DNA of 64,000 nt from an uncultured Bacteroidota bacterium (GTDB lineage Bacteria; Bacteroidota; Bacteroidia; Chitinophagales; Chitinophagaceae), in assembly GCA_903835005.1 (NCBI GenBank), contig CAILLK010000085.1:62001-126000 (forward strand), written 5' to 3'. Positions 44,468 to 51,062 of this stretch are shown here, one piece after another (positions within the stretch are counted from its first letter, which is position 1; each line of letters opens with the position of its first letter). Position numbers and translations under genes: made by a program. The notes beneath the pieces are model-generated. The model had not been told where the DNA came from. It saw only the letters and a program-made list of their open reading frames with translations, and ran no database searches.

Positions 44468-44511
44468 CAAATTTAGACCCGGCACCATGACTATCTTATG
44501 ACAGTTATCAT
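44468..44511 (-). promoter_or_regulatory. FNR-type promoter of tetraheme/adhesin operon
   Basis: On the minus strand TAAATTTG (44468-44475) is a perfect -7 element; exactly 22 bp upstream lies ATGACAGTTATCAT as read on the plus strand (44498-44511), 9 of 10 fixed positions of ATGAT-N4-ATCAT. The box would be centred about -42, as in class II FNR activation. Confidence 0.75.
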
Positions 44512-44780
44512 TCAATTTTTTGCGTTTTCGCATACTTCTGAAAAAGTAAAAGAACAGCTTCTTAAACCGATACCATCACTGCATAATATCCGCTGAAACT
44601 ATTGCTGGCAGACGATTCAGGGCACATTAACAAAAATGATACAAATGGAATGATATAAACCCTTCTTCCGGACAACTGACAGATATCAGTCTATTTTTGA
44701 TGGTAATCAGTCCAAAAACTGATTCACGTCATTATTTGCTTTTTACAATAGCTGTTTTGAACCGGAATGTTAATCCACTG

Positions 44781-44813
44781 CAAAAAAAATCCGGCAAACA
44801 AAAGCTTGCCGGA
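44781..44813 (-). terminator. Intrinsic terminator after 12-heme cytochrome gene
   Basis: On the minus strand TCCGGCAA and its complement TTGCCGGA (8-base loop) are followed by eight T residues, 23 bp after the stop codon. It separates the NHL/12-heme unit from the tetraheme operon. Confidence 0.9.
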
Positions 44814-44836
44814 CAGAAAAATATTGCAGAAATAAA

Positions 44837-46582
44837 TTAATAACTGGAGCCATTTTTAGAATGAGTATAATATACCCCCAGCGTATCGGAAGCGTGCTGA
44901 TGGCAAACGAAATAGCATTTGCGGTTTTGTATATCGATCATTTTTCCGTTAATCGGGTTCGGTCTGATAACAGAAGTATCAAAATTCAGCAATCTTTCAA
45001 ATGCAGAACCGGCATTTCCGCCGTTTGTACCCGGAACACCATCATAACCATGCGGATCATGACAGGTATTGCAACCAGTATACTTCATAAAATGACCGCC
45101 GGAAATTCCAGTGTGTATAGTGGTAACAGTAGACACATTGTGGCATTGAAAGCAAAGCGGCCAGTGCATATTGAGATTGGCACCTGAAGTCCAGCCCGCA
45201 CCGAGCATAGGGAACCTGGCAGTATCATAGGCATATTTGAGAATAGCCAGATTGCTGGAGCCATGAGGCCCGCCTGGCGCTCCGCTCCCGTCGCTGCCGT
45301 GACAGTCGCCGCAATACATCCTGCTTGATACCGTCCAGGGGCCGGTAAGACTGGTTACAAGCGGATTAGTGCCTGCTGAAGCTACAGGATGATAAGAAAC
45401 ATTAGTTGGCTGAAAATTCTGGCGCATATTCCCTACCCCACGGTACCGGTTAGTATAAGGCGGCACTGCCGGGTTATCGGAATGACATTTAAAGCATATC
45501 TGGTACTCATAGATTGCAGGGTTTACCGCATTGCCGTTCAGGTCCAGCCCAAGTACCCCATTCATAAATCCGTTTACGTTAGGGGCCGTAGCTGTCTGGG
45601 CATTGGAGGCATGAGGATTATGGCAATCCACGCACTCCACATGTTTTGTTCCCATCAGCGCCGGCTCTTTCTCATCATGTATACCGGTATATCCGAACAC
45701 ATTGTGCTTGTAGGTTTTGGTCAGCTGAGTCTGAATATTCTTTGCTGCTACATTACCGTTATGACAATTAAGACAGTTATCTTCCTCATGAGGGTAGTTG
45801 AGCAACCTAACTGCGCCACCTGCAGTATGCGGCGCATGGCAGTTTTCACATGCATTATCTGATACTGTAGTATAGCTGGTATGAAACCAGGGATTCACTC
45901 CGGATCCATTCCATGTTTTATTGGATGTACTATGTGTACTACTTGCCCAGTAGGTCTTGTCATGGCAGCTGTAGCAAAGCTGAGAACCCTGCGTTGTAGT
46001 TACCAGGAAATTGCCGAAAGTATTATCATGAGCCTCATGACAGGAGGTACATTGCACTTTACTGTTCTTGTCGAGCGAAACAGGTTGGGTAATATTGGCG
46101 GGCTGTTTTAACTGGCCATTTAACGCTGCGAGAGAGGCATCATAGAGAAATGAGACAGGATGATCGTCAGACAGATTGGTGCCCAGGTTGGTTAATCCGG
46201 TTGGCAATGTTGTTATCCCACCGAAACTTATCAATGTGGGAGAACTGACTACACTTCCCAGTGCAATTGTACCATCATGGCACGAAAGGCACATAATAGA
46301 GGTTCCGTCTGGTTGGCCAACGGCAGCATTGAGCGTAGAACTTGTGTACAATGTATAGGAAGCCCCTGGATCATTTTTATTCCAGAGCGGGCCACCTGCT
46401 ATGCTCCGCGAATTATGGGGTGTATGGCAAAATATACACACTTCAGTTTCACTGGTTGCTTTTATAGTCCCCGGCCCGGAAATGGACAGATTGTGTTTTG
46501 TATTCAATATAGACTGGCCCGCTGCAATTTGCGGCACCCAATACAAAAAGATAAATAATATGGCCTTAACTGTCTTTTTCAT
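44837..46582 (-). CDS. Dodecaheme cytochrome c
   Basis: A 581-residue exported protein with eleven CxxCH motifs and one CX3CH (CYFVCH) near the C-terminus, so twelve potential hemes. The first four motifs (CIFCHTPH, CLSCHDG, CTSCHEAH, CYSCHDK) form the same tetraheme module as the two neighbouring small cytochromes; the other eight form an added array with many extra His for axial ligation. It starts 2 bp after the NHL gene stop, so it is translationally coupled to it. Long heme chains of this kind usually carry electrons across or out of the envelope. Confidence 0.94.
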   Translation of the reverse strand: MKKTVKAILFIFLYWVPQIAAGQSILNTKHNLSISGPGTIKATSETEVCIFCHTPHNSRSIAGGPLWNKNDPGASYTLYTSSTLNAAVGQPDGTSIMCLSCHDGTIALGSVVSSPTLISFGGITTLPTGLTNLGTNLSDDHPVSFLYDASLAALNGQLKQPANITQPVSLDKNSKVQCTSCHEAHDNTFGNFLVTTTQGSQLCYSCHDKTYWASSTHSTSNKTWNGSGVNPWFHTSYTTVSDNACENCHAPHTAGGAVRLLNYPHEEDNCLNCHNGNVAAKNIQTQLTKTYKHNVFGYTGIHDEKEPALMGTKHVECVDCHNPHASNAQTATAPNVNGFMNGVLGLDLNGNAVNPAIYEYQICFKCHSDNPAVPPYTNRYRGVGNMRQNFQPTNVSYHPVASAGTNPLVTSLTGPWTVSSRMYCGDCHGSDGSGAPGGPHGSSNLAILKYAYDTARFPMLGAGWTSGANLNMHWPLCFQCHNVSTVTTIHTGISGGHFMKYTGCNTCHDPHGYDGVPGTNGGNAGSAFERLLNFDTSVIRPNPINGKMIDIQNRKCYFVCHQHASDTLGVYYTHSKNGSSY

Positions 46583-46584
46583 GT

Positions 46585-49424: not shown

Positions 49425-49563
49425 GTACTAAAGATAAATAAAAAATAAATCAAACTTCATTATCGTTACTAATCCAGAAATTCAATAAAAGAAAGAAGGT
49501 TGCATCCCAATAAGACCGCAACCTTCCGTTTTTCACTCAACCAAAAAATAAAACTTAATTCAT

Positions 49564-50937
49564 TTACATCACAGGCACCATTTTTACAGTAAAATGCCGC
49601 AAAAAAGCTGACTCCTCAATAATCCTGAGGCCTGAATAAGTATCCCGTTTATTAAATACCTCAATGATTACCTCCGCCACATAATCTATATGGCTCTGGG
49701 TATATACCCTGCGGGGTATGGCCAGCCGCACCAGTTCGAGCGTGGCAGGAATCAGCTTATGGTCTTCATCATACTTGCCAAACATCAGCGAACCTATTTC
49801 CACGCCTCTTACACCACCCTCTACATACAACGCACCTACAAGCACCTGTCCCGGATACTGGTCAACAGGTATATGCGGCAGAAAAGCCCTGGCATCCAGG
49901 TAAACTGCATGGCCACCTGCCGGCTGCATTACCGGCACTCCGGCATCAATCAGTTTATTGGTAAGGTATTCTATACTCCGGATACGGTATTGCAGATAGC
50001 TTTCTTCCAGCACTTCTTCCAGGCCTATGGCTATTGCCTCCAGGTCGCGCCCGGCCAGTCCGCCATAAGTGGGAAAGCCCTCGGTTATCACCAAAAGATT
50101 CCTGCACTTTAATGCCAGGTTTTCATCCCTCATTGCCAGGAAACCTCCAATATTGGCAAACGCATCTTTCTTGGCGCTCATGGTGCAGCCGTCGGCATAC
50201 GAAAACAACTCTTTGGCTATCTCCCTGGGTGTCTTATGCGCATAGCCTTCTTCCCGCAATTTTATAAACCACGAATTTTCGGCAAACCGGCAGGCATCAA
50301 TGAACAACGGTATACAAAACTCACTGCACACCTTTCTTACCGCCTTTATATTGGCCATACTCACCGGTTGCCCGCCACCCGAATTATTGGTAACGGTTAT
50401 AATCACCAGTGGTATGTTTTCAGCCCCATGATCTGTTATAAATTTCCTCAGGGCAGGTACATCCATATTGCCTTTAAACGGCGCCGGCACTGAGGGATGC
50501 TTGCCTTCTTCGCAAAGCAGGTCAATACCTTCCGCGCCCGAGAATTCTATATTTGCTCGTGTGGTATCAAACAATGTATTACTGATAAAATACTTACCCT
50601 TGCCTCCCAGTATGCTGAATAATATTTTCTCCGATGCCCTGCCCTGGTGGGTAGGTATAACATCCGGCATGCCTGTTATGGCTTGCACAGCATCCCTGAA
50701 CCGGAAATAACTGGGGCTGCCTGCATAGCTTTCGTCTCCGCGCATGATGCCAGCCCATTGTGCACTGCTCATGGCCGATGTGCCTGAGTCGGTTAGCAGG
50801 TCTATCAGCACATCTTCCGAATGGATCAGGAACGGATTGTAATCAGCTTTACCCAGCAGGTATATTCTTTCTTCCCGGGTATTGAAATTGATCGGCTCAA
50901 CCGACTTGATCCTGAATGGCTCTATAATTGTCTTCAT
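49564..50937 (-). CDS. tnaA: Tryptophanase
   Basis: A 457-residue PLP-dependent beta-eliminating lyase that splits tryptophan into indole, pyruvate and ammonia. The PLP lysine is in DGCTMSAKKDAF. The protein resembles tyrosine phenol-lyase overall, but three discriminating positions are of tryptophanase type: Asp in LFDTTRANIEF (Thr in phenol-lyases), Ile in VEIGSLMFG (Arg in phenol-lyases) and His in FLRHFTVKM (Phe in phenol-lyases). No tnaB or tnaC-like leader is seen. Its promoter carries a perfect FNR-like box. Confidence 0.9.
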   Translation of the reverse strand: MKTIIEPFRIKSVEPINFNTREERIYLLGKADYNPFLIHSEDVLIDLLTDSGTSAMSSAQWAGIMRGDESYAGSPSYFRFRDAVQAITGMPDVIPTHQGRASEKILFSILGGKGKYFISNTLFDTTRANIEFSGAEGIDLLCEEGKHPSVPAPFKGNMDVPALRKFITDHGAENIPLVIITVTNNSGGGQPVSMANIKAVRKVCSEFCIPLFIDACRFAENSWFIKLREEGYAHKTPREIAKELFSYADGCTMSAKKDAFANIGGFLAMRDENLALKCRNLLVITEGFPTYGGLAGRDLEAIAIGLEEVLEESYLQYRIRSIEYLTNKLIDAGVPVMQPAGGHAVYLDARAFLPHIPVDQYPGQVLVGALYVEGGVRGVEIGSLMFGKYDEDHKLIPATLELVRLAIPRRVYTQSHIDYVAEVIIEVFNKRDTYSGLRIIEESAFLRHFTVKMVPVM

Positions 50938-50956
50938 ATGCTGTAAAATAATCCGG

Positions 50957-51000
50957 CAAATGTGATGATTTCAGCGGTTGGCAAGTATGATTATAATCAT
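50957..51000 (-). promoter_or_regulatory. FNR-type promoter of tnaA
   Basis: On the minus strand CACATTTG (50957-50964, one mismatch to TAnnTTTG) lies exactly 22 bp from the perfect palindrome ATGATTATAATCAT (50987-51000). The box is centred about -42. Confidence 0.8.
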
Positions 51001-51018
51001 TTTTCGAAACTGCATGTA

Positions 51019-51062
51019 ATGATTCGCATCATGGTTATCACTTCCCTCCTTTATCATCTTTG
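51019..51062 (+). promoter_or_regulatory. FNR-type promoter of the PNPOx-like gene
   Basis: ATGATTCGCATCAT (51019-51032) is a perfect ATGAT-N4-ATCAT box; exactly 22 bp downstream is CATCTTTG (51055-51062, one mismatch to TAnnTTTG). It is divergent from the tnaA promoter, and the two boxes are 32 bp apart, about three helical turns. Confidence 0.78.

Follow-up and report, generated by a model that had tools for sequence, protein, structure and literature searches.

Established work places the class II binding site of CRP and FNR at position -41.5. In Escherichia coli and other Proteobacteria, FNR class II promoters carry there the core palindrome TGAT-N4-ATCA, and hemN, the cbb3 oxidase genes and nitric oxide reductase genes are among the targets. 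FixK, DNR and NnrR, which belong to the same CRP superfamily, use near-identical sites and overlapping types of target, and the FixLJ-FixK cascade of rhizobia, which operates at low oxygen, joins a two-component system to an FNR-type box. Sigma-A promoters of Flavobacterium psychrophilum are built of -33 and -7 elements, and mapped transcription starts place the latter, TAnnTTTG, at -12 to -5 (PMC9723704). Here we analyse an FNR-like box, ATGAT-N4-ATCAT, that recurs at a fixed distance from TAnnTTTG in a 64,000-nucleotide stretch of DNA (the window; positions 62,001 to 126,000 of contig CAILLK010000085.1, here C85) from an uncultured bacterium of the family Chitinophagaceae (Bacteroidota), whose 5.9 Mb draft genome comprises 163 contigs.

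The arrangement resembles FNR class II promoters in its core palindrome, in the position of that palindrome and in several targets (hemN, cbb3 oxidase and nitric oxide reductase genes), and one candidate reader has the four cysteines and the E-x-x-S-R recognition helix of FNR. It differs in that A or C is commoner than T at the outer base of the box, in that the core promoter is a Bacteroidota -7 element without a -35 element, and in a gene set that adds multiheme and NrfCD cytochromes and tryptophanase. The candidate readers depart from FixK, DNR and NnrR in domain make-up. A two-component logic like that of FixLJ-FixK is a candidate here, but with the receiver and the CRP-type DNA-binding domain fused in one 352-amino acid protein. 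Relative to the F. psychrophilum promoters, the -7 element is the same, whereas an activator site at -41.5 apparently takes the place of the -33 element. Literature searches returned nothing direct on an FNR regulon in Bacteroidota, on receiver-CRP regulators or on this box, and the main text of PMC9723704 mentions neither Fnr nor Crp. The kind of regulation is known; its promoter geometry in Bacteroidota, the genes it covers and perhaps the protein that reads the box appear undescribed in the searchable literature.

We scored the box over its 10 fixed positions and TAnnTTTG over its six. A first-pass annotation of the window had reported five boxes with 8-10 matches, each separated by exactly 22 nt from an element resembling TAnnTTTG on the appropriate strand, and direct reading of the sequence agreed with it. 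Box 1 (ATGATAACTGTCAT, 44498-44511, minus strand, 9/10) and its -7 element (TAAATTTG, 44468-44475, minus strand, 6/6) form the promoter of a tetraheme cytochrome/adhesin operon. Two divergent promoters follow: box 2, an exact palindrome (ATGATTAAAATCAT, 47750-47763, minus strand, 10/10; -7 element TAGTTTTG, 47720-47727, minus strand, 6/6), precedes an NHL/multiheme operon, and box 3 (ATGACAATGCTCAT, 47772-47785, plus strand, 8/10; -7 element TAATATTG, 47808-47815, plus strand, 5/6), 22 bp from it centre to centre, precedes a lipoprotein gene. Box 3 is the weakest of the five, with three mismatches including that in its -7 element, and would be insufficient without its conservation in four relatives. 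The remaining two are exact palindromes (10/10): box 4 (ATGATTATAATCAT, 50987-51000, minus strand; -7 element CACATTTG, 50957-50964, minus strand, 5/6) at the tryptophanase gene and box 5 (ATGATTCGCATCAT, 51019-51032, plus strand; -7 element CATCTTTG, 51055-51062, plus strand, 5/6) at a YhbP/PNPOx-like gene.

Placed 22 nt ahead of a TAnnTTTG element at -12 to -5, the 14-bp box spans -48 to -35 and is centred at -41.5, so the class II position proposed in the first-pass annotation was borne out by calculation. In a base-conservation profile of 41 distinct sites with at most one mismatch, in which only positions outside the pattern are informative because the set was selected with it, no base between -34 and -13 was conserved, and we therefore conclude that these promoters have no -33 element; A was the commonest base at the predicted +1. 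Both marks of a class II promoter, a site centred near -41.5 and a missing upstream core element, are present. Judged from these sequence features, class II activation by CRP/FNR-type proteins is the best reading, and a highly probable one. The boxes would be binding sites for dimeric activators of the CRP/FNR superfamily, each at -41.5 of a sigma-A promoter that has the Bacteroidota -7 element and no -33 element; since the latter is missing while the -7 element is kept, the bound protein would substitute for -33 recognition.

Genome-wide counts were obtained by pattern searches, with the reversed pattern as control. Perfect copies of the palindrome number 21 genome-wide, and those of the reversed pattern 6. 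The search for box-N22-TAnnTTTG, which the first-pass annotation had suggested, gave 19 sites with at most one mismatch versus one in the control (0.48 predicted from base composition), and C85 holds 8 of these 19. When the spacing was left free between 7 and 37 nt, 22 nt accounted for 10 of 17 matches in this genome and, among the matches listed for 100 family genomes, for 38 of 150 (background, about three at each spacing); 21, 23 and 24 nt formed a shoulder. Well-matched sites at 23 or 24 nt suggest that some variation is tolerated. At up to one mismatch, the pattern was found 274 times in the 100 family genomes (reversed, 25), with at least one match in 74 of them. A phylum-wide sample gave 312 matches versus 14 for the control in 58 genomes from other families of the class, and none or one in most genomes of other classes. 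The size of the regulon varies greatly within the phylum, since G046, G063, G080, G661 and many genomes of family f5 have 12 to 23 strong sites and some genomes none. Promoter sites with two mismatches, taken singly, exceed chance about fourfold, so that individual members of this tier are uncertain.

The promoters are also conserved. Judged by the NHL protein, the nearest named relatives are metagenome-assembled genomes, the closest being bin Umea2p3_bin-0931. Locus L219, with an NHL protein of 81% identity, has all five promoters at the same genes; in its NHL promoter the box and the -7 element are unchanged while the spacer has diverged. The box 1 site is kept there and, in diverged form, in L220. 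The 22 bp centre-to-centre distance of the divergent NHL/lipoprotein pair is kept in L219, L220, L221 and L185, and the 32 bp of the tnaA/PNPOx pair in L219. Among tryptophanase orthologs, the promoter was found in 17 of 28 loci, our own included, 13 of them at spacing 22 (mean for shuffled upstream regions, 0.17 at that spacing); counting relatives only, a box lies upstream of tnaA at spacing 22-24 in 16 of 27. NHL orthologs have it in 9 of 17 loci (8 besides our own), all at spacing 22. For hemN the figures are 10 of 27 orthologs, seven of them at spacing 22; the shuffled mean at that spacing was 0.11 for NHL and for hemN alike. In other genera, too, the tryptophanase and NHL/multiheme orthologs keep box, gap and -7 element around a diverged spacer.

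Two rival explanations bear on these figures. One holds that the boxes are chance palindromes in AT-rich intergenic DNA. Within the window such matches are indeed common, with 91 boxes at up to two mismatches versus 51 in shuffled sequences, but the excess over control in the genome and the family, the fixed spacing and the conservation of the sites despite diverged spacers refute it, and its probability is negligible. The other takes the boxes for operators at which a repressor, bound across the -33 region, would act. Occupation of -48 to -35 could in principle also block polymerase; operators, however, tolerate variable positions, and strict 22-nt spacing together with the missing -33 motif fits an activator that touches polymerase at a set position. 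We consider repression very unlikely and infer activation.

The boxed genes point to a physiological role. On C85, hemN has an exact promoter match (16/16), a norCB-like cytochrome/COX1 pair is boxed, and two-mismatch sites precede a hemerythrin/Rrf2 pair and proline dehydrogenase. On other contigs, boxes stand ahead of genes for a baeRF-type release factor and DnaJ, and two-mismatch sites ahead of ccoNO, a ClpB-like gene and the pyruvate:ferredoxin oxidoreductase operon. A set that includes hemN, norCB-like, cbb3 oxidase and pyruvate:ferredoxin oxidoreductase genes fits oxygen limitation. In F. psychrophilum, the cbb3 oxidase and heme biosynthesis are induced under oxygen limitation (PMC9723704), which fits such a regulon. 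Taken together, the sites probably make up a regulon for oxygen limitation, found widely across the family and in further families of its class. Its members here would be tryptophanase, monoheme and multiheme cytochromes along with an NrfC/NrfD-like module, the PNPOx-like protein, HemN, the norCB-like pair, the cbb3 oxidase and pyruvate:ferredoxin oxidoreductase. The box is a real, conserved control switch, with oxygen shortage as its probable signal. Between the norCB-like genes and hemN lies a gene for a 631-amino acid protein (L053:10714-12609; C85:36713-38608, minus strand) with a two-mismatch box upstream; it has no match in Pfam or NCBIfam.

The first-pass annotation had linked the multiheme pathway and tryptophanase to one redox regulator. 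The shared type of site stands and is conserved in relatives; a single regulator is unproven, as the genome has seven genes for proteins with a CRP-type helix-turn-helix domain and at least two kinds of protein are credible readers. An exact box lies within 2.5 kb of five of these seven genes (0.15 expected).

One candidate is encoded at the edge of the window (63654-64000, minus strand, the gene running on to 64370). This protein has an N-terminal C-x2-C-x4-C motif and a Cys107 that aligns with the fourth ligand of FNR, and all four cysteines are conserved in G006, G021 and G075, so a [4Fe-4S] cluster is a candidate feature from the cysteine positions. Its recognition helix has the form E-x-x-S-R (PEQVSR), conserved in G006 and G021. 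Against the curated Fnr model PRK11161 it scores 73 bits with a cut-off of 228, and we therefore call it FNR-type and not Fnr itself. Its downstream neighbour is a ResB/CcsA-type cytochrome c biogenesis gene (ccsBA, 60481-63630, minus strand). An exact box lies 98 bp upstream of the FNR-type gene start, and G006 also has a box upstream, which is only suggestive of autoregulation: in the direction of the gene, no good -7 element lies 22 nt from the box, and autoregulation by a complete class II promoter was dropped.

The other candidates are response regulators of the CRP family, 352-amino acid proteins found in 73 of 100 family genomes; in the one encoded on contig C78, Pfam identifies Response_reg, cNMP_binding and HTH_Crp_2 domains together. 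Our genome has three such receiver-CRP genes, two of them beside a gene for a PAS histidine kinase, and one faces the kinase gene with three boxes between them. Among the matches listed, receiver-CRP genes have 13 promoter sites no more than 8 kb away (0.61 expected), and none lies near CRP genes without a receiver, which as a group were dropped as general readers of the box. Within 1.5 kb either side of 30 receiver-CRP genes we found 33 boxes with at most one mismatch versus 0 for the reversed pattern; around FNR-type genes the same count was 9 versus 7. In 8 of 27 genomes hemN lies within 8 kb of a receiver-CRP gene (0.14 expected). In G005, G014, G059, G003, G008 and G036, which represent several genera, the gap between the two genes is 0.7-2.5 kb, and their pairing hints at signalling by heme or oxygen. 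FixL-like heme binding by the PAS domains of the kinases was considered; the sensor half of the C78 kinase has no relative in the PDB by sequence. In one of the receiver-CRP proteins of our genome (C128:74851-75909, L059), an asparagine apparently replaces the phosphorylated aspartate, so this protein is probably outside phosphotransfer. Similar proteins of 125-156 amino acids are encoded next to receiver-CRP genes in L148, L151, L135 and L149, several with boxes nearby, and L135 also has a gene, PNPOx-like by eye, behind a box.

The FNR-type and the receiver-CRP proteins are about equally likely candidate readers and may share sites. We tentatively propose, at somewhat below an even chance, that much of the class controls its low-oxygen genes through CRP-type response regulators that read the box at -41.5 of promoters lacking a -33 element, with a phosphorylation relay in place of the iron-sulphur switch of FNR, and that tryptophanase, hence indole, and multiheme respiration are included. 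Several observations weigh against our main reading, a class II regulon with these two candidate readers. Some of the 28 tnaA loci and most of the 27 hemN loci have no recognisable site. The four-cysteine FNR subgroup cannot read the box family-wide, because close homologs of the FNR-type protein occur in only 3 of 99 other family genomes. The recognition helix of the receiver-CRP proteins reads E-x-x-I-R where that of FNR reads E-x-x-S-R, so specificity for TGAT is not assured. The presence of a receiver-CRP gene predicts the number of sites only weakly (P 0.008 raw, 0.07 per Mb); P values serve here as guides only, given that 150 sites were listed and related genomes are not independent. G079 has 11 sites and no receiver-CRP gene at the threshold used.

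It is also possible, though doubtful, that the FNR-type protein, with a putative [4Fe-4S] cluster, is the sole reader, a local oxygen sensor linked to the cytochromes, and that receiver-CRP proteins control other sites. Its cysteines at the ligand positions and its E-x-x-S-R helix agree with this, as do its place beside ccsBA on C85, where 8 of the 19 best sites lie, the exact box upstream here and in G006, and the finding that G006 and G021, two of the three family genomes with close homologs, also have the NHL/multiheme genes. However, tnaA is boxed in G093 and G046, and the NHL/multiheme genes are boxed in G080, all genomes without a close FNR homolog, and the protein's own box lacks a good -7 element at 22 nt on the side of its gene. 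A nitric oxide-responsive regulator of the DNR/NnrR/HcpR type as the main reader, with the boxes forming a nitrosative-stress and denitrification regulon, would account for the boxed norCB-like pair and hemerythrin gene, and also for an exact box between a CRP-family gene and a Ric/ScdA-like (by eye) iron-sulphur-repair gene (C73:18527-20108, L057); the similarity of FNR and DNR motifs (PMC8510549) counts in its favour as well. Yet no good -7 element stands 22 nt from the C73 box, and hemN, the cbb3 oxidase, pyruvate:ferredoxin oxidoreductase, multiheme cytochromes and tryptophanase are atypical of nitric oxide defence, which makes this explanation improbable.

Two further promoters in the window had been overlooked in the first-pass annotation. 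One consists of a box at 51738-51751 (CTGATTAAAATCAT, plus strand) and a -7 element at 51774-51781 (TATTTTTG, plus strand) and serves a U32 peptidase-family gene (51805-53037). The other is a tandem-box promoter, in which a strong box (ATGACTATAATCAT, 38135-38148, minus strand) lies 44 nt upstream of its -7 element (TACTTTTA, 38083-38090, minus strand) and a degenerate box (7/10) occupies the 22-nt position between them. It precedes an operon (window 33872-38148) for a monoheme cytochrome c, a 78-amino acid protein whose start looks twin-arginine-like, an NrfC-like 4Fe-4S protein, NrfD and another small protein. The orthologous monoheme cytochrome gene in L222 (G080) also has a box upstream, and there the monoheme cytochrome and NrfC-like genes adjoin the multiheme cluster; this arrangement makes an electron path from quinone to the multiheme cytochromes likely.

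Downstream of box 1 lie genes for a tetraheme c-type cytochrome (43774-44427, minus strand), a second one (43019-43726) and a 1578-amino acid Big_2 protein with a secretion tail (38238-42974). The operon behind box 2 opens with the NHL beta-propeller gene (46585-47616, minus strand), whose partner encodes a multiheme cytochrome with 11 CxxCH motifs (44837-46582). The product of the gene behind box 3 (47847-48641, plus strand), annotated at first as an OB-fold lipoprotein, is lipoprotein-like, with the OB fold weakly suggested by a tRNA_anti-like match (E 0.034). The lyase behind box 4 (49564-50937, minus strand) passes the subfamily model PRK13238 (673 bits, cut-off 285) but fails the tryptophanase equivalog TIGR02617 (510 bits, cut-off 826), and in NCBIfam it reaches the equivalog cut-off neither for tryptophanase nor for tyrosine phenol-lyase. 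At three active-site positions that we take to discriminate between these enzymes it has Asp, Ile and His (FDTT, VEIG, LRHF), as in tryptophanase (tryptophan indole-lyase), which supports the original tnaA call; tyrosine phenol-lyase was ruled out, as Thr, Arg and Phe (FTTT, MERG, LRFF) are not found. Behind box 5 lies a YhbP/PNPOx-like family member (51096-51533, plus strand; NF002900, 81 bits, under the cut-off of 176).

The action of activators at the unusual -33/-7 promoters of Bacteroidota is little described, and with the fixed -41.5 geometry low-oxygen promoters could be predicted throughout the class by one simple rule. Two kinds of protein stand out as candidate readers, and a single type of site connects tryptophanase with a multiheme cytochrome/NrfCD pathway.

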